The translations under genes were made by a program, and so were the position numbers. DNA of 64,000 nt. Origin: Microvirga arabica. Its GTDB lineage: Bacteria > Pseudomonadota > Alphaproteobacteria > Rhizobiales > Beijerinckiaceae. The DNA lies in assembly GCF_016811235.1 (NCBI RefSeq), contig NZ_JAFBID010000027.1, positions 1-64,000 on the forward strand. The letters are read 5' to 3'. This document shows positions 6,209-47,723 of the stretch, one piece after another (position 1 is the first letter of the stretch; every line of letters begins with the position of its first letter). Under the pieces are notes generated by a model that worked only from the letters and a program-made list of their open reading frames with translations, was not told where the DNA came from and searched no databases.

Positions 6209-7745
6209 GGACGCCTCCCTGAGCCTGAGCAACGCCGAGCATCTCAAGACCCACGGCTTCCTTGGTCCATTCGCCGATGGGCTTCAGCGGACTCAAAGTG
6301 CCCTGGTGGATCACGGCCATCCGGTCCGCTACCTCGAACAGTTCGTCGAGATCCTGGCTGACCACGACCACGGCGCTCCCCTCCCGCGCCAGATCGACCA
6401 GCGCCTGACGGATGAGGCGGGCCGCGCCCGCATCGACGCCCCAGGTCGGCTGATCGACGATGAGGAGCTTTGGGCGTCGGATGATCTCGCGGCCGATGAC
6501 GAATTTCTGCAGGTTGCCGCCTGAGAGCTTACGAGCCTGCGGGTCTCCTTCGGGCGTGCGCACGTCGAAGCTCTGAACAATGGACCGGGCGACCCGCCTA
6601 GCGGCATTCATCAGGATGAAGCCGGACCGGCTCACCTCGGTAGCCGCATGGGAAATCAGTGTGTTCTCGCTCAGACTATGGCTCGGAGCGGCCGCATGGC
6701 CCAGCCGCTCCTCCGGCACGAAGGCTGCGCCAAGGCGTCTGCGCGGATCGATACCCAGAGTGCCCGAGGGTTTGCCGTTGATGACGACGGACTCAGCCCG
6801 ATCCGGCAGGCGCTCGCCCGACAGCGCGGCGAAGAGCTCGCTCTGGCCATTGCCCGCAACCCCGGCGATGCCGACGATCTCGCCGGCCCGTGCCACGAGG
6901 CTGATGTCGCGCAGCGCCTGCCCGTGTAAGCCGGCCGGCGGCATCGACAGGTTCGACACCCTGAGCATCTCCCCCTGCGGGTGATGCGGCGCATCGGTGC
7001 GGATCTCGCCCACTGCGCTGCCCACCATCAGGGCGGCAATCTCGCGGGCGCTGCTCGCCCGGGGATCGATGGTGGCCACAACCCGCCCTGCCCGCAGAAT
7101 GGTGGCGCGGCGGCAGAGGCGGCGTACCTCTTCCAGCTTGTGGGAGATGTAGAGGATGGAGCAGCCCTCTGCCGAGAGCCTGTCGAGGGTCGTGAAGAGA
7201 TGCTCGGCCTCCTGCGGGGTGAGCACCGAGGTCGGCTCGTCGAGGATGAGCAGGCGCGGGTTCTGAAGCAGGCATCGAACGATCTCGATGCGCTGACGCT
7301 CGCCGGCCGAGAGGGTCCAAACGGCCCTGTCCGCATCGAGCGCCAAACCGTAGGTCCGGCTGATCTCTCCAAGCTTTTCTCGAACCTTGGACAGGCTCCA
7401 TTCGCTGGAGAGCGCCACGGCGATGTTCTCCGCCACGCTCAGCTCGTCGAAGAGCGAGAAGTGCTGGAACACCATGCCAAGGCCGAGCGCCCGCGCCTCG
7501 ACAGGCGAGCCGATGGTCACGGGACGGCCTTGCCAGCGAATCACGCCGGCGCTCGGCTCGATCACCCCGTAGAGGATCTTGACCAAGGTCGACTTGCCCG
7601 CCCCGTTCTCACCCAGAAGGGCCTGAATCTCGCCCGGCTCGATCGAAAGATCGATTCCGTTATTCGCGAGAAGATCGCCGTAACGCTTGCTGATCCCTTT
7701 AAGTTCGACGAGGGGCGTTCCCGAGGGTGGTACGTCTGCCTTCAC
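6198..7745 (-). CDS. ABC transporter ATP-binding protein, two ABC domains (BMP-type importer)
   Basis: Cytoplasmic ATPase with two fused ABC cassettes, as in sugar/nucleoside importers of the RbsA or YufO type. Cassette 1 has Walker A GENGAGKST (45-53), signature LSAGE (145-149) and Walker B ending in E170 (RLLILDEPT). Cassette 2 has the signature LSGGN near residue 400 and the LLIVDQPTWGVDAGA segment, with Q where a catalytic Glu is usual and a degenerate Walker A (GVAGNGQSE), which is normal for this group. The 515-residue length fits. The start is GTG at 7745, the only possible start because an in-frame TAA lies six codons upstream. This is the first gene of the operon; its promoter should lie in the 204-base divergent gap to the monooxygenase gene. 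Confidence 0.94.
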   Translation of the reverse strand: MKADVPPSGTPLVELKGISKRYGDLLANNGIDLSIEPGEIQALLGENGAGKSTLVKILYGVIEPSAGVIRWQGRPVTIGSPVEARALGLGMVFQHFSLFDELSVAENIAVALSSEWSLSKVREKLGEISRTYGLALDADRAVWTLSAGERQRIEIVRCLLQNPRLLILDEPTSVLTPQEAEHLFTTLDRLSAEGCSILYISHKLEEVRRLCRRATILRAGRVVATIDPRASSAREIAALMVGSAVGEIRTDAPHHPQGEMLRVSNLSMPPAGLHGQALRDISLVARAGEIVGIAGVAGNGQSELFAALSGERLPDRAESVVINGKPSGTLGIDPRRRLGAAFVPEERLGHAAAPSHSLSENTLISHAATEVSRSGFILMNAARRVARSIVQSFDVRTPEGDPQARKLSGGNLQKFVIGREIIRRPKLLIVDQPTWGVDAGAARLIRQALVDLAREGSAVVVVSQDLDELFEVADRMAVIHQGTLSPLKPIGEWTKEAVGLEMLGVAQAQGGVHAV

Positions 7746-7949
7746 ACAAGCGTCTCTGACTTAAAGGTTGAACCCGGGTCGGAATCTGCACATGAATGAT
7801 GGCTCATACGGAAGCTGGCAAGCGCCGTAGAGGTCCGTCACTCCTTCGTGAGCCGATCATAGGGATGCGGCGCACCGGTCGGCAATGGCGAATCCATGGT
7901 TTATTGTGAGTCCGCTCCCCGTGCACAAAAATGGTTAAGAGGCAAGGCT

Positions 7950-9158
7950 TTGACCGAAAGCACCTATAACGTTGCTGTTGTCGGCGCTGGGGCCGTCGGC
8001 CTGAGCGCTGCCGTGGCTTTTGCCCGCGACGGCTTCAAGACCGTTCTGGTCGGAGGGCTCGATACGCGCCGGGATGGCCGCACTGTCGCTCTTCTCAACG
8101 GCTCGGTGCGCTTTCTGGAGGCGCTCGGAGCATGGCCCGCCATCGTTCGGGAGGCCGCTCCGCTCGAGACCATGCGGATCGTCGACGACACGGGCAGCCT
8201 GTTCCGTCCTCCTCCGGCCTCGTTCCGGGCCGGAGAGATCGGCCTCGACGCCTTCGGATGGAACATCGAGAACACCGCCCTGGTCGAGAAGCTCGCCGAG
8301 GCAGCGCAGGCTTGCGTGAACCTGACCCACGTGCCGGAATTCGCAACCGGCTTCGAGGCGAGCGACACCGGAGCCAGCCTGACGCTGGCCGGTGGCGGAA
8401 CCGTCAGGGCGAGCCTCGTAGTCGCCGCGGACGGGCGCAATTCCAAGCTGCGCCAGATTGCCGGGATTGGAACCCGCACCTGGTCCTATCCCCAATCCGC
8501 CGTGACCGTTATCCTCGCCCATGATCGGGACCACAGGGAAACCTCGACGGAATTCCATACCCGCCATGGGCCCTTCACGCTCGTTCCCCTGCCCGGCCGC
8601 CGCTCCAGCCTCGTCTGGGTCACGAGCAAGGCCGAGGCGGAGCGCCTGTCGCAACTCGACGAGGCGGCTTTGGCGGCCGCTATCGAGCGGCAGGCTCAGT
8701 CACACCTCGGTGTCATGCGCGTCGACGGCCCACGGGGCCTCGTGCCGATGACCGGCCTTTCGGTGAACCGCTACTGGGCTCGGCGGGTCGCTCTCGTGGG
8801 CGAGGCAGCCCATGTCTTCCCGCCCATCGGGGCGCAGGGCCTCAATCTCGGCTTCCGCGATGTCGCCTCCCTGCGGGATGCGGTCGTAGACGGGCAGAAC
8901 GAGGGGCATGAGCCCGGGTCCGAGGAAACCTTGACCCGCTATCAGAGCAGCCGCGACCTCGATGTCCGCCTGCGGACGGCCGCCGTGGACGGGCTGAACC
9001 GTACTCTTCTAACCGGCATGCTGCCAACGGACTTCCTGCGCGGGGCCGGCCTCCTGGCGCTCAGCAATATCGGTCCTTTGCGCCGGGTTGTCATGCGCGA
9101 GGGGGTTCTGCCGCGGGTGGGCGCTCCCCGGCTGATGCAGGGCGCTTCGACCGGTTAG
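7950..9158 (+). CDS. UbiH/UbiF-family FAD-dependent monooxygenase
   Basis: Flavoprotein hydroxylase of the UbiH/COQ6 family, probably acting on the ring of a ubiquinone precursor; the exact ring position cannot be read from sequence. It shows the dinucleotide motif GAGAVG (12-17), the central ADGRNSKLRQ segment and the second FAD motif VALVGEAAHVFPPIGAQGLN. The glutamate in GEAAH replaces the commoner aspartate. I start at TTG 7950 because AGAGG lies seven bases upstream and the protein then begins TESTYNVAVVGAG; the frame is open to a GTG-like start near 7896, which would give an uncharacteristic extension. It encodes 402 residues. Its stop overlaps that of the AEC gene tail to tail. Confidence 0.88.
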   Translation: MTESTYNVAVVGAGAVGLSAAVAFARDGFKTVLVGGLDTRRDGRTVALLNGSVRFLEALGAWPAIVREAAPLETMRIVDDTGSLFRPPPASFRAGEIGLDAFGWNIENTALVEKLAEAAQACVNLTHVPEFATGFEASDTGASLTLAGGGTVRASLVVAADGRNSKLRQIAGIGTRTWSYPQSAVTVILAHDRDHRETSTEFHTRHGPFTLVPLPGRRSSLVWVTSKAEAERLSQLDEAALAAAIERQAQSHLGVMRVDGPRGLVPMTGLSVNRYWARRVALVGEAAHVFPPIGAQGLNLGFRDVASLRDAVVDGQNEGHEPGSEETLTRYQSSRDLDVRLRTAAVDGLNRTLLTGMLPTDFLRGAGLLALSNIGPLRRVVMREGVLPRVGAPRLMQGASTG

Positions 9159-10123
9159 GGAAACAGGTCGTAAGGCATGGCGCCTGTCTTGGTGATGTAG
9201 AGGATGACGGTCAGGGTCAGCATCGAGACAATCGTGCCGATGAGCACGCAGGCCGAGGCGCGTTCCACGCCCACGTTGTACTGGGTCGAAATGACGAAGA
9301 TGTTCAGCGCCGGCGGCAGCGCCGCCATGATGACCGCCGCATAGATCCAGGCGGGGCCGAAGTCGCCCAGGGCCGAGAGTACCACCCAGACGAGAAGCGG
9401 GTGGAGGATCAGCTTGATGAAGACCAGAACCGGCACCTCTCCGGGCATCTGCCGCAGGGGCCTCAAGGCCACGGTGACACCGAGGATGAACAGGGCGCAG
9501 GGCGCGGCAGCCCCCGCGAGCCACGTGACGATCTGGTCGGCGGCCTGGGGCAGTTGGAGATGCAGGTAGCTCGCCGCCACGCCGATGGCGGTCGCGATGT
9601 TGAAGGGGTGAGTCACGACACGCCAGACGATCCTGCGGATCGTGGCCGCAAGACTCAACTTCTCGACCCCGGCCAGGGACATGAGGAGCGGCACGACGGA
9701 GAACAGAAACAAGTTGTCGAAGACAAAGATCAGCACCACCGGGGCGCTGGCCGAGGCGCCGATCGCCGCAAGGATCAGCGGCGGCCCCATATAGCCGATA
9801 TTCGAATAGGACCCGGCCACCCCCTGCATGACCGATTGCGGCAAGTCCCTGGTGTAGCGCCATCCGGTTGCGAAGGAGAGCGCGAAGGCGCAGAAGGTCG
9901 AGAACGTCGTCGCCAGGATGAAGGGCCAGTTCGCAAGCTCGTCCAGGGGCTTGTCGGCGATGAGCCGGTAGAACAGGCAGGGCAGCGCAACATAGATCAG
10001 GAAGAACTGCATCCATGCGAGCCCGGCTTCCGGCTGCTTCACCACCTTGCCGCAGAAGAAGCCGAGCCCGATGAGGCCGAAGAAGGGGGCGAGCAGGTTG
10101 AACAGCCCGATCAGGTCGGACAT
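9155..10123 (-). CDS. AEC-family transporter (auxin efflux carrier type)
   Basis: Integral membrane carrier of the AEC family, 322 residues with about ten hydrophobic helices. Recognisable points are GLIGLGFFCGKV near the N terminus, GSYSNIGYMGPPL in the middle and an ALPPALNIFVISTQYNVG segment near the C terminus. Bacterial relatives move organic acids such as malate or malonate, but the substrate here is unknown. The ATG at 10123 has GGAGCCGCCC just upstream; longer upstream starts are ignored. Convergent with the monooxygenase gene, the two stops sharing four bases (TTAG). Confidence 0.88.
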   Translation of the reverse strand: MSDLIGLFNLLAPFFGLIGLGFFCGKVVKQPEAGLAWMQFFLIYVALPCLFYRLIADKPLDELANWPFILATTFSTFCAFALSFATGWRYTRDLPQSVMQGVAGSYSNIGYMGPPLILAAIGASASAPVVLIFVFDNLFLFSVVPLLMSLAGVEKLSLAATIRRIVWRVVTHPFNIATAIGVAASYLHLQLPQAADQIVTWLAGAAAPCALFILGVTVALRPLRQMPGEVPVLVFIKLILHPLLVWVVLSALGDFGPAWIYAAVIMAALPPALNIFVISTQYNVGVERASACVLIGTIVSMLTLTVILYITKTGAMPYDLFP

Positions 10124-39264: not shown

Positions 39265-39486
39265 AACTTGCGCTGGACAGCAGCCAGCCTCCCTGTCTGA
39301 GCCGGGCGGAGCTTATGCGTATTTAGGCCCTGTTTGTCCGAGAGCCATGGGATGCGCCAAAGACGACCAGATCTGTGACTAATCCGGCACTCTCGGCATC
39401 CCGCCTGCGGCGCAACAAAACCTTGACCACAAGCGTTCCGCTGAAAGTTGAGGCCCGTTGCCTCTATAGAAGGGTATGCAGGGTTG

Positions 39487-41010
39487 ATGATGAACGGAGC
39501 GAGCCCATCAGCGCCTTCCTCTGAAGCCGGGGAATTCGCCCAGTTGCAGGCTCGCCTGGCTGCCATGTTCCGTGGCTTTTCGGATCAGGACACGCCACGG
39601 ACGGTCGTCATCGTTCCGAGCCTGACCATGGATCGGGAGGTTCTCGCCAACATCTCGGGCGTTCATCACTATGAAGAGCGGATGCTCTGCTATCTGATGC
39701 TCCTGCGGCTGCCCCGGACGCAGATCATTTATGTGACGAGCCATCCGGTCCCGGAGCCGATCGTCGACTACTACCTGCACCTGCTGCCGGGAATCCCTGC
39801 GCAGCACGCCCGGAAGCGCCTGACCCTTCTCTCCTGCCACGATGGTTCGCGCACCTCCCTGACCGAGAAGATCATCGAGCGCCCTCGCCTGCAGCAGCGG
39901 ATCCGGGACTCCATTCCCGATCCGTCCGCCGCCTACATGATCTACTTCAACGTCACGGAACTGGAGCGCGACCTGGCGCTCAGCCTCGATCTGCCGATCT
40001 ATGGCTGCGATCCCGACCTTCTGTCGCTAGGCTCCAAGAGCGGCTCGAGGAAGATCTTCCGTGAGGCCGGCATCGCGATGCCCGAAGGCTTGGAGGATCT
40101 CTTCACGCCGGATCAGATCGTGGACGCGCTGCTGGAGCTAAGGCAGCGCCGGCCTGCCATCAAGCGAGCGGTCGTGAAGCTCAATGAGGGGTTTTCAGGC
40201 GAGGGCAATGCGGTGTTCGCCTATGGGGGAGCCCCCAATGTGTCCGACCTGCGAGGCTGGGTCCGCAGCCGCCTTCCTCACCTTGCCTTCGAAGCAAAGG
40301 ACATGACCTGGGAGTTGTTCGAGGAGAAGCTCCGCGCCATGGGCGGGATCGTGGAGGAGTTCATTGAAGGAGAGGTCAAGCGCTCCCCTTCGGCCCAGTT
40401 CCGCATCGACCCGCTCGGGCAGCTCGAGCCTGTCTCGACCCACGATCAGGTTCTCGGGGGCGACAGCGGGCAGGTCTTCCTCGGCTGTACCTTTCCGGCC
40501 GACAAGCACTACCGCCTCGATATTCAGCAGGATGGCCTCAAAGCGGCCAGGGCGCTTGCCGAGCAAGGCGTCTGCGGGCGTTTCGCCATCGATTTCCTGT
40601 CGGTGCTGGAAGGCAACGAGTGGCGCCACTACGCCATTGAGATCAACCTGAGGCGCGGGGGAACGACGCATCCGTTCATGATGCTCGAGTTCCTGACGGA
40701 TGGCTGCTACGACCCAGCCACCGGAAGCTTCCTCACCCCGGCCGGTCAGCCCCGTTGCTACTACGCCTCCGACAACCTCGAATCGCCGCTCTATCGTGGT
40801 CTCACCCCCGGCGACCTGATCGACATTGCGGCAATCAACAGGCTGCACTTCGATGGAGCCTGCCAGAAGGGCGTGGTCTTCCACCTGATCGGCGCCCTGT
40901 CGGAATTCGGCAAGCTTGGTGTCCTCTGCATCGCTCCATCTCATGAGGAAACGGAAGCGCTCTACAGACGCACGACCGAAGTGCTCGACCGGGAGAGCAC
41001 AACGGTCTGA
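39487..41010 (+). CDS. ATP-grasp ligase, PGM1-like (peptide ligase-related)
   Basis: About 507 residues. The N-terminal half has a pre-ATP-grasp fold with VVIVPSLTMDREVLANISGV and HYEERMLCYLMLLR. The C-terminal half carries ATP-grasp landmarks: AVVKLNEGFSGEGNAVF (nucleotide-binding Lys and glycine loop), IVEEFIEGEVKRSPS and the metal-site strand AIEINLRRGGTTHP. This arrangement resembles proteins called peptide ligase PGM1-related, after the pheganomycin ligase. The acceptor and amine substrates are unknown. Start is ATG 39487 or the adjacent ATG 39490, which has the better spacing from AGGG. It converges on purT, another ATP-grasp enzyme, with a 10-base gap. Confidence 0.82.
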   Translation: MMNGASPSAPSSEAGEFAQLQARLAAMFRGFSDQDTPRTVVIVPSLTMDREVLANISGVHHYEERMLCYLMLLRLPRTQIIYVTSHPVPEPIVDYYLHLLPGIPAQHARKRLTLLSCHDGSRTSLTEKIIERPRLQQRIRDSIPDPSAAYMIYFNVTELERDLALSLDLPIYGCDPDLLSLGSKSGSRKIFREAGIAMPEGLEDLFTPDQIVDALLELRQRRPAIKRAVVKLNEGFSGEGNAVFAYGGAPNVSDLRGWVRSRLPHLAFEAKDMTWELFEEKLRAMGGIVEEFIEGEVKRSPSAQFRIDPLGQLEPVSTHDQVLGGDSGQVFLGCTFPADKHYRLDIQQDGLKAARALAEQGVCGRFAIDFLSVLEGNEWRHYAIEINLRRGGTTHPFMMLEFLTDGCYDPATGSFLTPAGQPRCYYASDNLESPLYRGLTPGDLIDIAAINRLHFDGACQKGVVFHLIGALSEFGKLGVLCIAPSHEETEALYRRTTEVLDRESTTV

Positions 41011-43923: not shown

Positions 43924-45006
43924 GTGACAGGCGCCTATATCAATCGGATCGGCACGGCTGTGCCTGAGTATGACGTCCATCAGACCTTCATCGGTTTTGT
44001 CGACAACCTGTTGCCCGAGCGAAAGGACAAGCTTCTGTTCAGGCGCATGGTGCAGCGCTCCGGCATCGAGCATCGCTACTCAACCCTCACGCCCAGTGAG
44101 AACCTGAACGTGGCTGCCGATCAGGAGGGTTTCTTCCAACCGGGGCAGTTTGCCGGGACTGCTGCCCGGATGAGCCGTTTTGAAACCCATGCGGTTGATC
44201 TTGCCGAGAGGGCTGTCGAGGCTCTTGATCTTGGCGAGGAACTCCCCTCACTCACCCATCTTATCGTAGCATCCTGCACGGGCTTTACCGCTCCGGGGCT
44301 CGATCAGCAGCTGATGGCACGCCTCGGCCTCACCCCCTCCATCGAGCGCACCATGGTCGGATTCATGGGCTGCGCGGCGGCCGTCAACGCATTGAAGTTG
44401 GCGCACCACATCGTCCGGTCGGAACCCTCCGCGAAGGTGCTGGTCGTCAATCTGGAGCTCTGTACCCTTCATCTTCAGGAAACCTCCGATCTTGAGGTGA
44501 TCCTGGGGGCTCTGCTCTTCGGCGACGGATGCGCCGCGAGCTTCGTGACGGCCGAGCCACGCGGCATTGCCCTCAAGGATTTTCGCGTCGCGACCATTCC
44601 GGATACGAGGGATCTCATCACGTGGCGCATCGGCGATGCCGGCTTTCAGATGAGCCTGTCCGGTGAGGTGCCGCAGCAGATCGCGAAATCGCTCCGCCAT
44701 GAGGCAACCCGCAACGATGACGGAGGCATCCTACGTGGCCAGCAGAAAAACGAATTCGACCTCTGGGCCGTTCATGCGGGCGGGCGCACGATCCTCGACG
44801 CGGTCGAGCAGGGACTAGAGCTTGAGCCGGATGCCTTGCGCTGGTCCCGCGGGGTTCTGCGGGATTTCGGCAACATGTCGTCCGCCACCCTGATGTTCGT
44901 GCTGGGTCGCATGATGCAGCAGGCGCCGCCGGATTCGAGAGGATTCGGCATGGCCTTCGGCCCTGGGCTAGTCGCCGAAACCTTCCGGTTCGACATCGCA
45001 GGGTAA
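43924..45006 (+). CDS. Type III polyketide synthase (chalcone/alkylresorcinol synthase family)
   Basis: Homodimeric ketosynthase that extends an acyl starter with malonyl-CoA without an acyl carrier protein and cyclises the chain. The catalytic triad is complete: C150 in GFMGCAAAVNALKLAHH, H284 in LWAVHAGGRTILDAVE and N317 in DFGNMSSATLMFVLG (add 3 if the GTG at 43915 is used). The substrate-side segment SCTGFTAPGLDQQL is also typical. 360 residues is normal. I prefer GTG 43924 because GCAGGG lies eight bases upstream. First gene of a four-gene operon with two methyltransferases and a flavoprotein. Starter, chain length and ring type cannot be read from sequence. Confidence 0.9.
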   Translation: MTGAYINRIGTAVPEYDVHQTFIGFVDNLLPERKDKLLFRRMVQRSGIEHRYSTLTPSENLNVAADQEGFFQPGQFAGTAARMSRFETHAVDLAERAVEALDLGEELPSLTHLIVASCTGFTAPGLDQQLMARLGLTPSIERTMVGFMGCAAAVNALKLAHHIVRSEPSAKVLVVNLELCTLHLQETSDLEVILGALLFGDGCAASFVTAEPRGIALKDFRVATIPDTRDLITWRIGDAGFQMSLSGEVPQQIAKSLRHEATRNDDGGILRGQQKNEFDLWAVHAGGRTILDAVEQGLELEPDALRWSRGVLRDFGNMSSATLMFVLGRMMQQAPPDSRGFGMAFGPGLVAETFRFDIAG

Positions 45007-45013
45007 CGCCGCC

Positions 45014-45727
45014 ATGGGCCGAAGCTTCGCCGAGCGCAGCCACGAGACGGAGCTGATGGACACCGAGGCTGTCAGTTTCGAGGATTACCGGGCCTGCCTG
45101 AAGGATCTCGCCACGGTCAATGCTTTGACCCTGACCCATGGCCCAATCCTGACATGGCTCGACCGCGCCACCCGCAATCTGGCACCGAGCGGGCGTGTGA
45201 CGGTTCTCGATGTGGGTTACGGTTATGGCGATCTCCTGCGCAAAATCCATGCTTGGAGACGCCGTAAGAGACGGATCGTCGATCTGGTTGGGGTCGACCT
45301 CAACCCCATGAGCGAGACGATTGCCCGTGCGGTCACGCCCACCGATGTCTCCATCGATTACCGAACCGGCAACGTCTTCGACTACGAGCCCGAACGGCCG
45401 ATCGACTTCATCATCAGTTCCCAGACGACGCATCACATGTCGGATGAGGAGCTGGCAGTTTTCATCCGCTGGATGGAACAGGTGGCGGCACGCGGCTGGT
45501 ACATTGCCGACCTGCACCGTCATTCCGTCCCGTTTCATGCTTTCGGCGCCCTCGCCCGCGTCGCTCGCTGGCATCGCTTCGTCCAGCACGACGGGCCCGT
45601 CTCCATCGCTCGCAGCTTCCGGAAAGACGATTGGGAGAGGATCCTGCATGCAGCGGGCCTTTTGCCCGGAACGGCAGAGATTCGGTGGCATGTTCCGTTC
45701 CGCCTCTGCGTAAGCCGATTGAAATGA
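45014..45727 (+). CDS. SAM-dependent class I methyltransferase of the polyketide operon
   Basis: 237-residue Rossmann-fold methyltransferase. SAM-binding motif I is VTVLDVGYGYGDLLRKI, and the motif II acid lies in LVGVDLNPMSETIA. The N terminus RSHETELMDTE and the later SSQTTHHMSDEEL segment are distinctive. It starts 8 bases after the polyketide synthase stop and overlaps the next gene by 4 bases, so it is co-translated. It is likely to methylate a polyketide ring hydroxyl or carbon; which one is not determinable. In Streptomyces srsABC a methyltransferase follows the synthase in a comparable way. Confidence 0.87.
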   Translation: MGRSFAERSHETELMDTEAVSFEDYRACLKDLATVNALTLTHGPILTWLDRATRNLAPSGRVTVLDVGYGYGDLLRKIHAWRRRKRRIVDLVGVDLNPMSETIARAVTPTDVSIDYRTGNVFDYEPERPIDFIISSQTTHHMSDEELAVFIRWMEQVAARGWYIADLHRHSVPFHAFGALARVARWHRFVQHDGPVSIARSFRKDDWERILHAAGLLPGTAEIRWHVPFRLCVSRLK

Positions 45728-46878
45728 GCGGCTACCGTACCGAGGAGTGCGTGATCGTAGGCGGAGGGCTCGCCGGAGCCTCGGCCGCCTGCGTCCTGGG
45801 CCGGGAAGGCCGCTCGGCGCTTCTCCTTGAGCGCGATCTGCAACTACGTCATAAAACCTGTGGCGAGTTCCTCAGTGTCGAGGCGCAAGCCTATCTTGCC
45901 CATCTCGGCATCGATCTCGAAGGTCTAGGCGCAAGCCGGATCTCGCGCCTGCGGCTGTATCATCGTGAGGGACAGGCTGACGCAGAGCTGCCCTTCTTGG
46001 CCCGCGGAATCTCCCGCAAGGTTCTGGACGAAACGCTTTTGCAAAAGGCCGTGGCGTACGGCGCTCGCGTTGTGCGTGGCGCGACCGTGCGGTCCATCGC
46101 AGCCGATGAAGCAGGCATTCGGATCGACGCGGGACCATTCGGCAAGATCCAGACGGAAACACTCTTTCTGGCCAGCGGCAAGCATGATGTCAGGGGTGTC
46201 AAGCGCTCGGCATCGGGATCCATCAACGATCTCGTCGGCTTCAAGATGCACTACCGGCTCTCGGAGCGCCAGCGAGCAGCCCTCGACGGCGCCATCGAGG
46301 TCGTCCTGTTCGATGAAGGCTATGCGGGTCTGCAGTTGATCGAGGGCGGGATCGCCAACTTGTGTCTGGTCGTGTCCCGGAACCGCTTTGAGCATGTCGG
46401 AAAGAGTTGGACCGGCCTGACTGAACATATCGTCCGTGAGTCCCCGCTCTTAGCCGGCCGGCTGCGGGACGCACTCGCGCTTTTCGACAAACCCCTGTCG
46501 ATCTTCCAGATACCTTATGGCTTCGTTCATCAGCCCGAAGCGATCGAGGCTCAAGGGCTCTACCGCCTTGGCGATCAGATGGGTGTTATCCCCTCTTTCA
46601 CCGGTGAGGGCATGTCGATAGCCCTTCACAGCGGGTGTCTGGCTGCTTCGATATTTCTTCGCCATAGCTGCACCGGCGGCGATTTCCATCGGAAGATGGC
46701 ATCCGACATACGGCGGCAGGTCCGGCTCGCCTTCTTGCTCAATAAGGCTGCGCGCTACGGACCGGGCCAGTCGGCGCTCTTTCAGATCTGCCGTACATGG
46801 CCTTCCCTCATGCGGCAGGTCGCGGCCTTCACCAGACTTCGGGAGGGCTCCATGCAAAGCGCACTGGCACTGCCATGA
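45724..46878 (+). CDS. FAD-dependent oxidoreductase, geranylgeranyl-reductase-like
   Basis: 384-residue flavoprotein. The dinucleotide motif VIVGGGLAGASAA is at the N terminus, followed by the KTCGEFLSVEAQAYLAHLG segment that recalls the Cys-Gly/Ala-Glu motif of geranylgeranyl reductases. The second FAD motif is YRLGDQMGVIPSFTGEGMSIA. Family relatives hydroxylate, halogenate or reduce lipophilic substrates. In this operon it could oxidise a resorcinol to a quinone or reduce a prenyl/acyl chain; I cannot decide. The start ATG overlaps the methyltransferase stop (ATGA); the frame is open to 45631 inside the methyltransferase gene, which I discount. Confidence 0.86.
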   Translation: MSGYRTEECVIVGGGLAGASAACVLGREGRSALLLERDLQLRHKTCGEFLSVEAQAYLAHLGIDLEGLGASRISRLRLYHREGQADAELPFLARGISRKVLDETLLQKAVAYGARVVRGATVRSIAADEAGIRIDAGPFGKIQTETLFLASGKHDVRGVKRSASGSINDLVGFKMHYRLSERQRAALDGAIEVVLFDEGYAGLQLIEGGIANLCLVVSRNRFEHVGKSWTGLTEHIVRESPLLAGRLRDALALFDKPLSIFQIPYGFVHQPEAIEAQGLYRLGDQMGVIPSFTGEGMSIALHSGCLAASIFLRHSCTGGDFHRKMASDIRRQVRLAFLLNKAARYGPGQSALFQICRTWPSLMRQVAAFTRLREGSMQSALALP

Positions 46879-47723
46879 TCGTGCCACGGAAAGTTCAGAC
46901 ATCCGCTGCTGTCGCTGAGCATTACGACGAGCTTGACCCGTTCTACCGCGAGATCTGGGGTGAGCATCTCCATCACGGCCTCTGGAAAAGCGGTCGGGAG
47001 ACGCTGAGCGAGGCGGTCGAGGCCCTCCTCGCCCATCTCGCCGGAGCACTGGAGCTTCATCCTGGCCAACACATCTGTGATGTCGGTTGCGGCTATGGCG
47101 CGACGGCCGAGTGGCTCGCGCGTCGCTATGGTGTCCGCGTGACCGGCGTCACGCTCTCGTCCGTACAGCTTCGGAAGGCGCAAACCCGTAGCGCCGCATC
47201 GCCCCTGCTGCACTTTAACCTGCAGGACTGGCTCGGGAATACGTTTGAGAGCGAGAGCTTCGACTGTGTGATCGCCATCGAGAGCTCCGAGCACATGCCC
47301 GACAAGCAGCGGTTCTTCGACGAGGTCTCTCGCACCCTCCGTCCCGGCGGGCGCTTCGCCGTCTGTGCCTGGCTGGCGCGTGATAGCGCCCGCTCCTGGG
47401 AGGAACGCTACCTGCTGGAGCCGATCTGCCGGGAGGGGCGTTTGCCAGGTATGGGCAACGAGTCGGAATATTGCGCATGGGCCAGCAAAGCCGGCCTCGT
47501 GGTCGATGGGTTCGAAGACCTCAGCGCCAGGGTGAGGCGCACTTGGGCGCTGTGCACGGGGCGGGTGGCAAGGAAGCTCCTGACCCATCGGCAATACAGA
47601 CGCTATCTGCTGGACGCCCGAGCCAGGAACCGCATCTTCGCCCTCAGCGTCCCACGCATCTGGATCGCCTATCTGACCGGATCGATGCGCTACGGTCTCA
47701 TGACGGCGCATAAGCCGAAGTAG
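46875..47723 (+). CDS. Methyltransferase resembling tocopherol O-methyltransferases
   Basis: 282-residue SAM-dependent methyltransferase. The opening AVAEHYDELDPFYREIWGEH then LHHGLW is strongly reminiscent of gamma-tocopherol and related quinone/sarcosine methyltransferases. SAM motif I is ICDVGCGYGATAEWLARRYG, followed by GVTLSSVQLRKAQ, IAIESSEHMPDK and LRPGGRFAVCAWLA. The ATG overlaps the flavoprotein stop (ATGA). As the last gene of the operon it gives a second methylation. The C-terminal RIWIAYLTGSMRYGLMTAHK is also seen in tocopherol-type enzymes. Convergent with the ankyrin gene 16 bases away. Confidence 0.88.
   Translation: MIVPRKVQTSAAVAEHYDELDPFYREIWGEHLHHGLWKSGRETLSEAVEALLAHLAGALELHPGQHICDVGCGYGATAEWLARRYGVRVTGVTLSSVQLRKAQTRSAASPLLHFNLQDWLGNTFESESFDCVIAIESSEHMPDKQRFFDEVSRTLRPGGRFAVCAWLARDSARSWEERYLLEPICREGRLPGMGNESEYCAWASKAGLVVDGFEDLSARVRRTWALCTGRVARKLLTHRQYRRYLLDARARNRIFALSVPRIWIAYLTGSMRYGLMTAHKPK

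Follow-up and report, generated by a model that had tools for sequence, protein, structure and literature searches.

A four-gene type III polyketide synthase operon of Microvirga, probably a genus branch of a widespread family building modified alkylresorcinols

The 64,000-nucleotide (nt) stretch of Microvirga arabica DNA analyzed here (contig NZ_JAFBID010000027.1; hereafter the window) carries a gene for a type III polyketide synthase (PKS) followed by genes for a methyltransferase (MT1), a flavoprotein, and a second methyltransferase (MT2), and it raises the question of what compound these four enzymes would build. A sequence-only reading of this locus had proposed a twice-methylated phenolic or quinone lipid. 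Our data are likewise best read as an operon for a lipid of this phenolic or quinone kind that carries methyl groups. Specifically, the operon is probably the Microvirga branch of a widespread PKS-methyltransferase-flavoprotein family that builds modified, hierridin-like alkylresorcinols; this reading is made by analogy, because MT1 appears to share its family with the methyltransferases of planctomycete operons whose synthases make alkylresorcinols.

Four co-directional open reading frames (ORFs) on the plus strand at positions 43924-47723 encode the PKS, MT1, the flavoprotein, and MT2, confirming the operon as first proposed. Pfam and NCBIfam assign these proteins to a chalcone/stilbene-type synthase, a class I methyltransferase, the FAD_binding_3/GG-reductase superfamily, and a CMAS-type methyltransferase, respectively, with the NCBIfam matches scoring under their curated cutoffs. 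For the PKS, a GTG start at 43924 is preferable to 43915, where the longest ORF begins, because several orthologues open with MTxAxINxIGTAVP. MT1 starts at 45014, 7 nt after the PKS stop at 45006 rather than the 8 nt counted previously, while the 4-nt overlaps described for the last two starts were borne out, with ATGA at both the MT1/flavoprotein and flavoprotein/MT2 junctions. The host genome comprises 6.67 Mb in 246 contigs; its closest named relatives belong to Microvirga, and the PKS is 94% identical to that of Microvirga sp. BT688.

The arrangement is not a product of chance, because PKS, methyltransferase, and flavoprotein genes recur in that order, on one strand and within 5 kb, in 72 of 80 related loci (the 80 being part of 102 confirmed loci, fetched with the PKS from named genomes). 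These trios comprise 39 with MT1 and flavoprotein of the window's kind, 19 of that kind that also have MT2, and 14 of a diverged kind, whose methyltransferase and flavoprotein are 18-21% and 24-26% identical, respectively, to those of the window in the rows aligned. The eight deviating loci, which stay within the 80, include five without methyltransferase or flavoprotein (four from Williamsia/Gordonia and one at a contig end), two without MT1, and one with the flavoprotein upstream on the opposite strand. The trio spans Alpha- and Gammaproteobacteria, Acidobacteriota, and a myxobacterium; locus titles include Bradyrhizobium, Granulicella, Edaphobacter, Marinobacter, and Enhygromyxa, as well as Acidocella and Lichenicoccus, which we take to be Acetobacteraceae. 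The pairing of a type III PKS with this flavoprotein, initially thought undescribed, is therefore frequent, and the trio has already been published for Acetobacteraceae (PMC8776678). The expectation that the genes travel together held for the trio, which is common, whereas all four were found together only in the window's genus.

The link to a known product comes from MT1. When 198 Planctomycetota genomes were searched with an MT1-family profile, 29 of the 38 strong matches (at least 80 bits) lay within 6 kb of a type III PKS and 29 of 38 within 3 kb of a flavoprotein match, versus 1 of the 37 weaker matches tabulated near a PKS. Conversely, an MT1-family methyltransferase was found near 25 of the 30 best-scoring planctomycete synthase matches versus 4 of the 43 others. 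Eleven invariant residues of the MT1 family, including His140-His141, Arg169, Asp193, and Ser197, are kept in all 37 other rows of the alignment and, except for one Gly72Ala, in all 16 planctomycete operon methyltransferases. By profile and residues, MT1 can be placed in the same family as the methyltransferases of the planctomycete MT-FAD-PKS operons (FAD, the flavin adenine dinucleotide-dependent flavoprotein). A structural model of MT1 (predicted local distance difference test [pLDDT] score, 95.5) has CouO/NovO, tied with BpumL, as nearest folds among the Foldseek matches listed. In the available text on the planctomycete operons, synthases from G. maris, R. baltica, and S. maiorica yielded alkylresorcinols when expressed in C. 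glutamicum, and coexpression of the G. maris methyltransferase and flavoprotein genes added one methyl group, judged to be on carbon; the authors left the role of the flavoprotein open, and two synthases from outside MT-FAD-PKS operons yielded no product (PMC10896814). As a separate observation, MT1-family and flavoprotein genes adjoin in three draft planctomycete genomes (G562:C156, G640:C129, and G705:C111) with no type III PKS match genome-wide, which may point to a different substrate or a divided pathway.

The PKS itself passes the Pfam cutoff for PF00195 and PF02797. The intact Cys-His-Asn triad noted at the outset is present as C153-H287-N320 (numbering from 43915) and is kept in all 70 aligned synthases, i.e., 66 of the gathered synthases plus four PDB segments, with THNS as the outgroup. 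In the tree of these 70 rows, the window PKS falls in a Microvirga clade (support, 0.999) within a trio clade that has a support of 0.967 when the planctomycete loci L239 and L240 are included and 0.171 for its 45 members without them. Pks18 and Steely1 are placed between the window clade and a planctomycete clade, with weak support (0.731 and 0.585). The PKS thus falls among long-chain type III PKSs, well apart from THNS, in keeping with the earlier lipid assignment; this placement supports a lipid-type synthase and leaves resorcinol versus pyrone undecided. Trp237 (same numbering), kept in 63 of the 70 synthases, is replaced by Tyr in THNS, and we take it to be equivalent to Trp281 of ArsB. 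Trp281 has been tied to resorcinol closure and is present in PkqA, according to the available text (PMC9927152). With exceptions given below, Trp237 is suggestive of resorcinol closure.

The most serious alternative, though clearly the less probable one, is that the synthase makes long-chain alkyl-alpha-pyrones by lactone closure and that these are the substrates of MT1, the flavoprotein, and MT2, with no resorcinol or quinone formed. The best PDB match of the PKS is Pks18 (1ted; 9.6e-44), which we take to be an alkylpyrone synthase using a long-chain starter, and Pks18 lies closer to the window clade than do the alkylresorcinol synthases of planctomycetes, with the weak support noted; Pks11, moreover, shares the Trp. 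Against lactone closure, Pks18 has Leu where the window PKS has Trp237, and the MT1 family partners alkylresorcinol synthases in planctomycetes, as reported in the available text (PMC10896814). It is very doubtful that the starter is an aromatic or short acyl coenzyme A and the product a small phenol or stilbene-like compound rather than a lipid. Starter choice is, in our judgment, not readable from this sequence, and plant chalcone and stilbene synthases are likewise among the PDB matches of the PKS (1e-36 to 1e-38), but THNS is far off in the tree and Pks18, on the assumption above, takes a long-chain starter. So do the planctomycete enzymes, by the published account (PMC10896814), which together with Pks18 are the nearest characterized relatives.

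Two further alternatives concern the flavoprotein. That it is a true prenyl or alkyl double-bond reductase of the geranylgeranyl reductase kind, acting on an unsaturated side chain or a prenylated product, is improbable; the label "GGR-like" of the sequence-only reading names no more than the superfamily. The motif YxWxFP, which we take to be the signature of geranylgeranyl reductases, occurs in 0 of 43 members of the flavoprotein family versus 20 of 20 control reductase-like proteins, and the four-gene unit contains no prenyltransferase; we rejected the prenyl-reductase identity on the missing motif. Halogenation of the ring is the least probable of these proposals, although halogenases lead the fold and profile matches. 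WxWxIP, presumably a halogenase motif, occurs in 0 of 43 family members, a count to be read with the control set also lacking the motif and with no halogenase as a positive control. The top structural matches among those listed by Foldseek are halogenases and monooxygenases, and together with the missing YxWxFP this makes a ring hydroxylase likelier than a prenyl reductase; the flavoprotein is hence a predicted aromatic-ring hydroxylase.

Several observations weigh against hierridin-like alkylresorcinols as the product. Eight other planctomycete operon synthases form a separate clade (support, 0.961), which is placed outside Pks18 and Steely1 with weak support, and the trio of Gimesia panareensis, one of the planctomycete operons whose methyltransferase belongs to the MT1 family, is distant from that of the window (identities of 35% for the PKS, 24% for the methyltransferase, and 26% for the flavoprotein). 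Trp237 is not decisive, since Pks11 also carries Trp, although its PDB entry names it alpha-pyrone synthesis-like, and CylI carries Leu in this column, although it is listed with the alkylresorcinol enzymes; we accordingly dropped this residue as proof of resorcinol closure. The flavoprotein profile gives 109-147 bits on reductase-like proteins without a nearby PKS. Because it scores such unlinked proteins equally, the link between the flavoproteins of the window and of planctomycetes rests on position and on the missing motif, and its bit score was discarded as proof of operon orthology. The planctomycete operon flavoproteins belong to the same superfamily and lack YxWxFP, but their profile scores fall in a range shared with unlinked reductase-like proteins; 31 of the 56 listed planctomycete matches of at least 80 bits lie near a PKS. 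The corresponding hierridin step is given as a "reduction" in one source (PMC8086630, available text) versus a hydroxylation in another (PMC10896814, available text). Finally, no metabolite from Microvirga was reported in the literature read, where T3PKS in this genus appeared as an antiSMASH mention in M. brassicacearum.

MT2 sets the window's operon apart. Among 37 genomes of the window's genus group, its own included, the PKS (at least 71% identity) occurs in 24, the flavoprotein (at least 51%) in 22, each of which also has the PKS, and MT2 (at least 65%) in 20, only where both PKS and flavoprotein are present, so that the sets are nested. All 19 loci with MT2 among the 80 are Microvirga, and the 120 best of 5,366 database relatives are at least 63% identical, every listed one with a named organism being Microvirga and many carrying no organism. 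Outside the genus, no MT2 was seen in the 80 loci, in 24 order-level genomes (best match, 79 bits at 39% identity), or among the organism-named ones of those 120 relatives. MT2 is the new element of the operon and is limited to the genus within the genomes and relatives searched. By tblastn, G029 retains PKS and MT1, G031 has PKS and an MT1 remnant, G007 has a truncated MT1 and no MT2, and G024 lacks MT2. Among loci of named species, M. massiliensis combines a truncated MT1 with the absence of MT2, M. roseola is missing MT2, and M. lupini carries the complete set of four. The genus thus presents a graded series (PKS with an MT1 remnant; PKS and MT1; PKS and flavoprotein with a truncated MT1; PKS, MT1, and flavoprotein; all four), and the pathway could therefore be followed stepwise in the lipids of strains that already exist. 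The best PDB match of MT2 is 3bus (5.2e-32). "Tocopherol O-methyltransferase" is a database label carried by its relatives, and the resemblance claimed from it does not show O-methylation; the plant tocopherol methyltransferase methylates a ring carbon.

Taken as a pathway, the synthase would elongate a long-chain fatty acyl starter by three malonyl units and cyclize it through aldol condensation to a 5-alkylresorcinol, a ring carbon of which would be methylated by MT1; the flavoprotein would then hydroxylate the ring to an alkyl-hydroquinone, oxidizable to the quinone, and MT2 may add a further methyl group on oxygen or carbon. We infer the substrates, products, step order, and methylation positions, as well as a role as membrane lipid or auxiliary quinone, from these comparisons; a part in defence would be another possible role. 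In a more far-reaching version, which we regard as speculative, MT2 acts last, on an alkyl-hydroquinone already C-methylated and hydroxylated, and the product is a doubly methylated alkylbenzoquinone specific to the genus, which Microvirga would use alongside ubiquinone as an auxiliary electron carrier in its membrane; this would be an alphaproteobacterial counterpart of the mycobacterial polyketide quinones, encoded on a cassette subject to gain and loss.

The distribution of the synthase clade offers further detail. In Hyphomicrobiales it occurs (matches below 1e-100) in 26 of 397 sampled genomes, own included, and 20 of 20 further loci opened (of 25) have MT1-profile and flavoprotein matches downstream of the PKS, each kind making up about half. 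The synthases of L034, L042, L044, L193, L203, and L205 group with those of the class-A loci L036 and L043 (support, 0.918), and their methyltransferases and flavoproteins are about 20% and 25% identical, respectively, to the window kind, with the methyltransferase family residues kept; either the tailoring genes were exchanged under a retained synthase or they diverged very fast. In the Gordonia family, the clade occurs in 15 of 121 genomes; around 14 of these 15 synthases (L082, L084, and 12 others), no MT1 match was detected and flavoprotein-profile matches reached at most 38 bits. The four Williamsia/Gordonia loci among the 80 have the synthase alone, and the same-clade synthases of L082, L084, L086, L090, and L169-L180 (Williamsia, Gordonia, and kin) have no MT1 match and weak flavoprotein matches nearby, which suggests stand-alone or rewired use. 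When 296 actinobacterial genomes were searched with the flavoprotein alignment, none of the 20 loci kept had a PKS or MT1 match within about 1.5 kb. Many Acidobacteriota loci have additional genes between methyltransferase and flavoprotein: in Granulicella (L056:9869-10510) a DUF2306 membrane-protein gene lies between MT1 and the flavoprotein, with a similar-sized, unassigned gene there in other Acidobacteriota loci. The host order also has a second type III PKS class, 33% identical, which in L098 (4136-4675) precedes a membrane methyltransferase of the ICMT family (PF04140).

Comparison of genomic neighborhoods indicates that the operon is a cassette gained or lost as a block, in either direction, because G023, which has no such PKS, has the site without the operon. 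In L011-L027 the operon follows an EamA gene and precedes ankyrin and/or nucleoside-hydrolase genes where the locus extends far enough. In G023 (L277 = G023:C7:80000-99000, 7554-9461), about 85 bp separate the EamA match from the nucleoside-hydrolase match, and both the operon and the ankyrin gene that most relatives have between these two are missing; this clean empty site comes from one genome. The other four PKS-less regions (L278-L281) have PurT and EamA, with no nucleoside hydrolase within the stretch taken, and the EamA/nucleoside-hydrolase neighborhood was not seen in the loci of M. puerhi, M. roseola, M. massiliensis, and M. pakistanensis, the last of which ends short upstream. EamA orthologues (at least 78% identity) occur in 26 of the 37 genus genomes, including 7 that lack this PKS, and are missing from 5 of the 24 PKS-bearing genomes; the transporter was rejected as a pathway gene on these counts. 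Composition was likewise dismissed as a sign of recent transfer, as the 1-kb GC content over the operon (0.61-0.65) resembles that of the flanks (0.59-0.65).

Features of the four-gene operon in the window
Feature	Positions	Strand	Basis
Type III polyketide synthase (PKS)	43924..45006	+	Pfam Chal_sti_synt N and C; longest ORF from 43915
MT1, class I S-adenosylmethionine (SAM) methyltransferase, predicted ring C-methyltransferase	45014..45727	+	Pfam/NCBIfam, family residues, fold
FAD flavoprotein, predicted aromatic-ring hydroxylase	45724..46878	+	Pfam/NCBIfam, motif, fold matches
MT2, RebM/CMAS-type methyltransferase, genus-limited fourth gene	46875..47723	+	Pfam, relatives, orthologue counts

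Elsewhere in the window, positions 39448-41010 encode an ATP-grasp protein with a PGM1_C domain and a sub-cutoff match to BesA (138 of 750 bits), located beside PurT in several relatives; it is possibly a peptide-forming ligase.

Although the trio was already known, the MT1 family common to alkylresorcinol operons of another phylum is a new link, as MT2 is a new element. The shared methyltransferase family ties a common PKS-methyltransferase-flavoprotein operon of Alphaproteobacteria and Acidobacteriota to the planctomycete alkylresorcinol operons and makes its chemistry testable. Several Microvirga species are root-nodule strains, so a phenolic lipid in the membrane or an additional quinone might influence how they survive in soil and in nodules.

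In the open-licence literature we found no paper pairing a type III PKS with a geranylgeranyl reductase and no description of the four-gene set; its closest known systems share three of the functions. The type III PKS clusters of Acetobacteraceae all have a methyltransferase and an FAD-dependent monooxygenase, with product unknown, and Microvirga is among the closest outside synthases, according to the available text (PMC8776678). Acetobacteraceae-like loci of our set (L033, L035, L040, L041, and L059, from Acidocella and Lichenicoccus) have MT1 and flavoprotein of the window's kind but are three-gene clusters, with no MT2 in those loci. The planctomycete operon, e.g., that of Gimesia maris, likewise unites a methyltransferase of the same family, a flavoprotein of the same superfamily that also lacks YxWxFP, and a type III PKS, but its usual order is MT-FAD-PKS and it has no MT2-type gene as described. 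By description, cyanobacterial hidABC has the same three functions; hierridin-like clusters run methyltransferase-oxidoreductase-PKS or PKS-methyltransferase-oxidoreductase, the latter being the window's order (hidC-hidA-hidB), and some have two methyltransferases, the second being called a homologue within the cluster, a comparison with MT2 that is by description only (PMC8086630, available text). Also by description, SrsABC of Streptomyces griseus and PkqABC of Mycobacterium smegmatis are PKS-methyltransferase-oxidoreductase operons like this one, and they lead to methylated alkyl benzoquinones (PMC9927152, available text).

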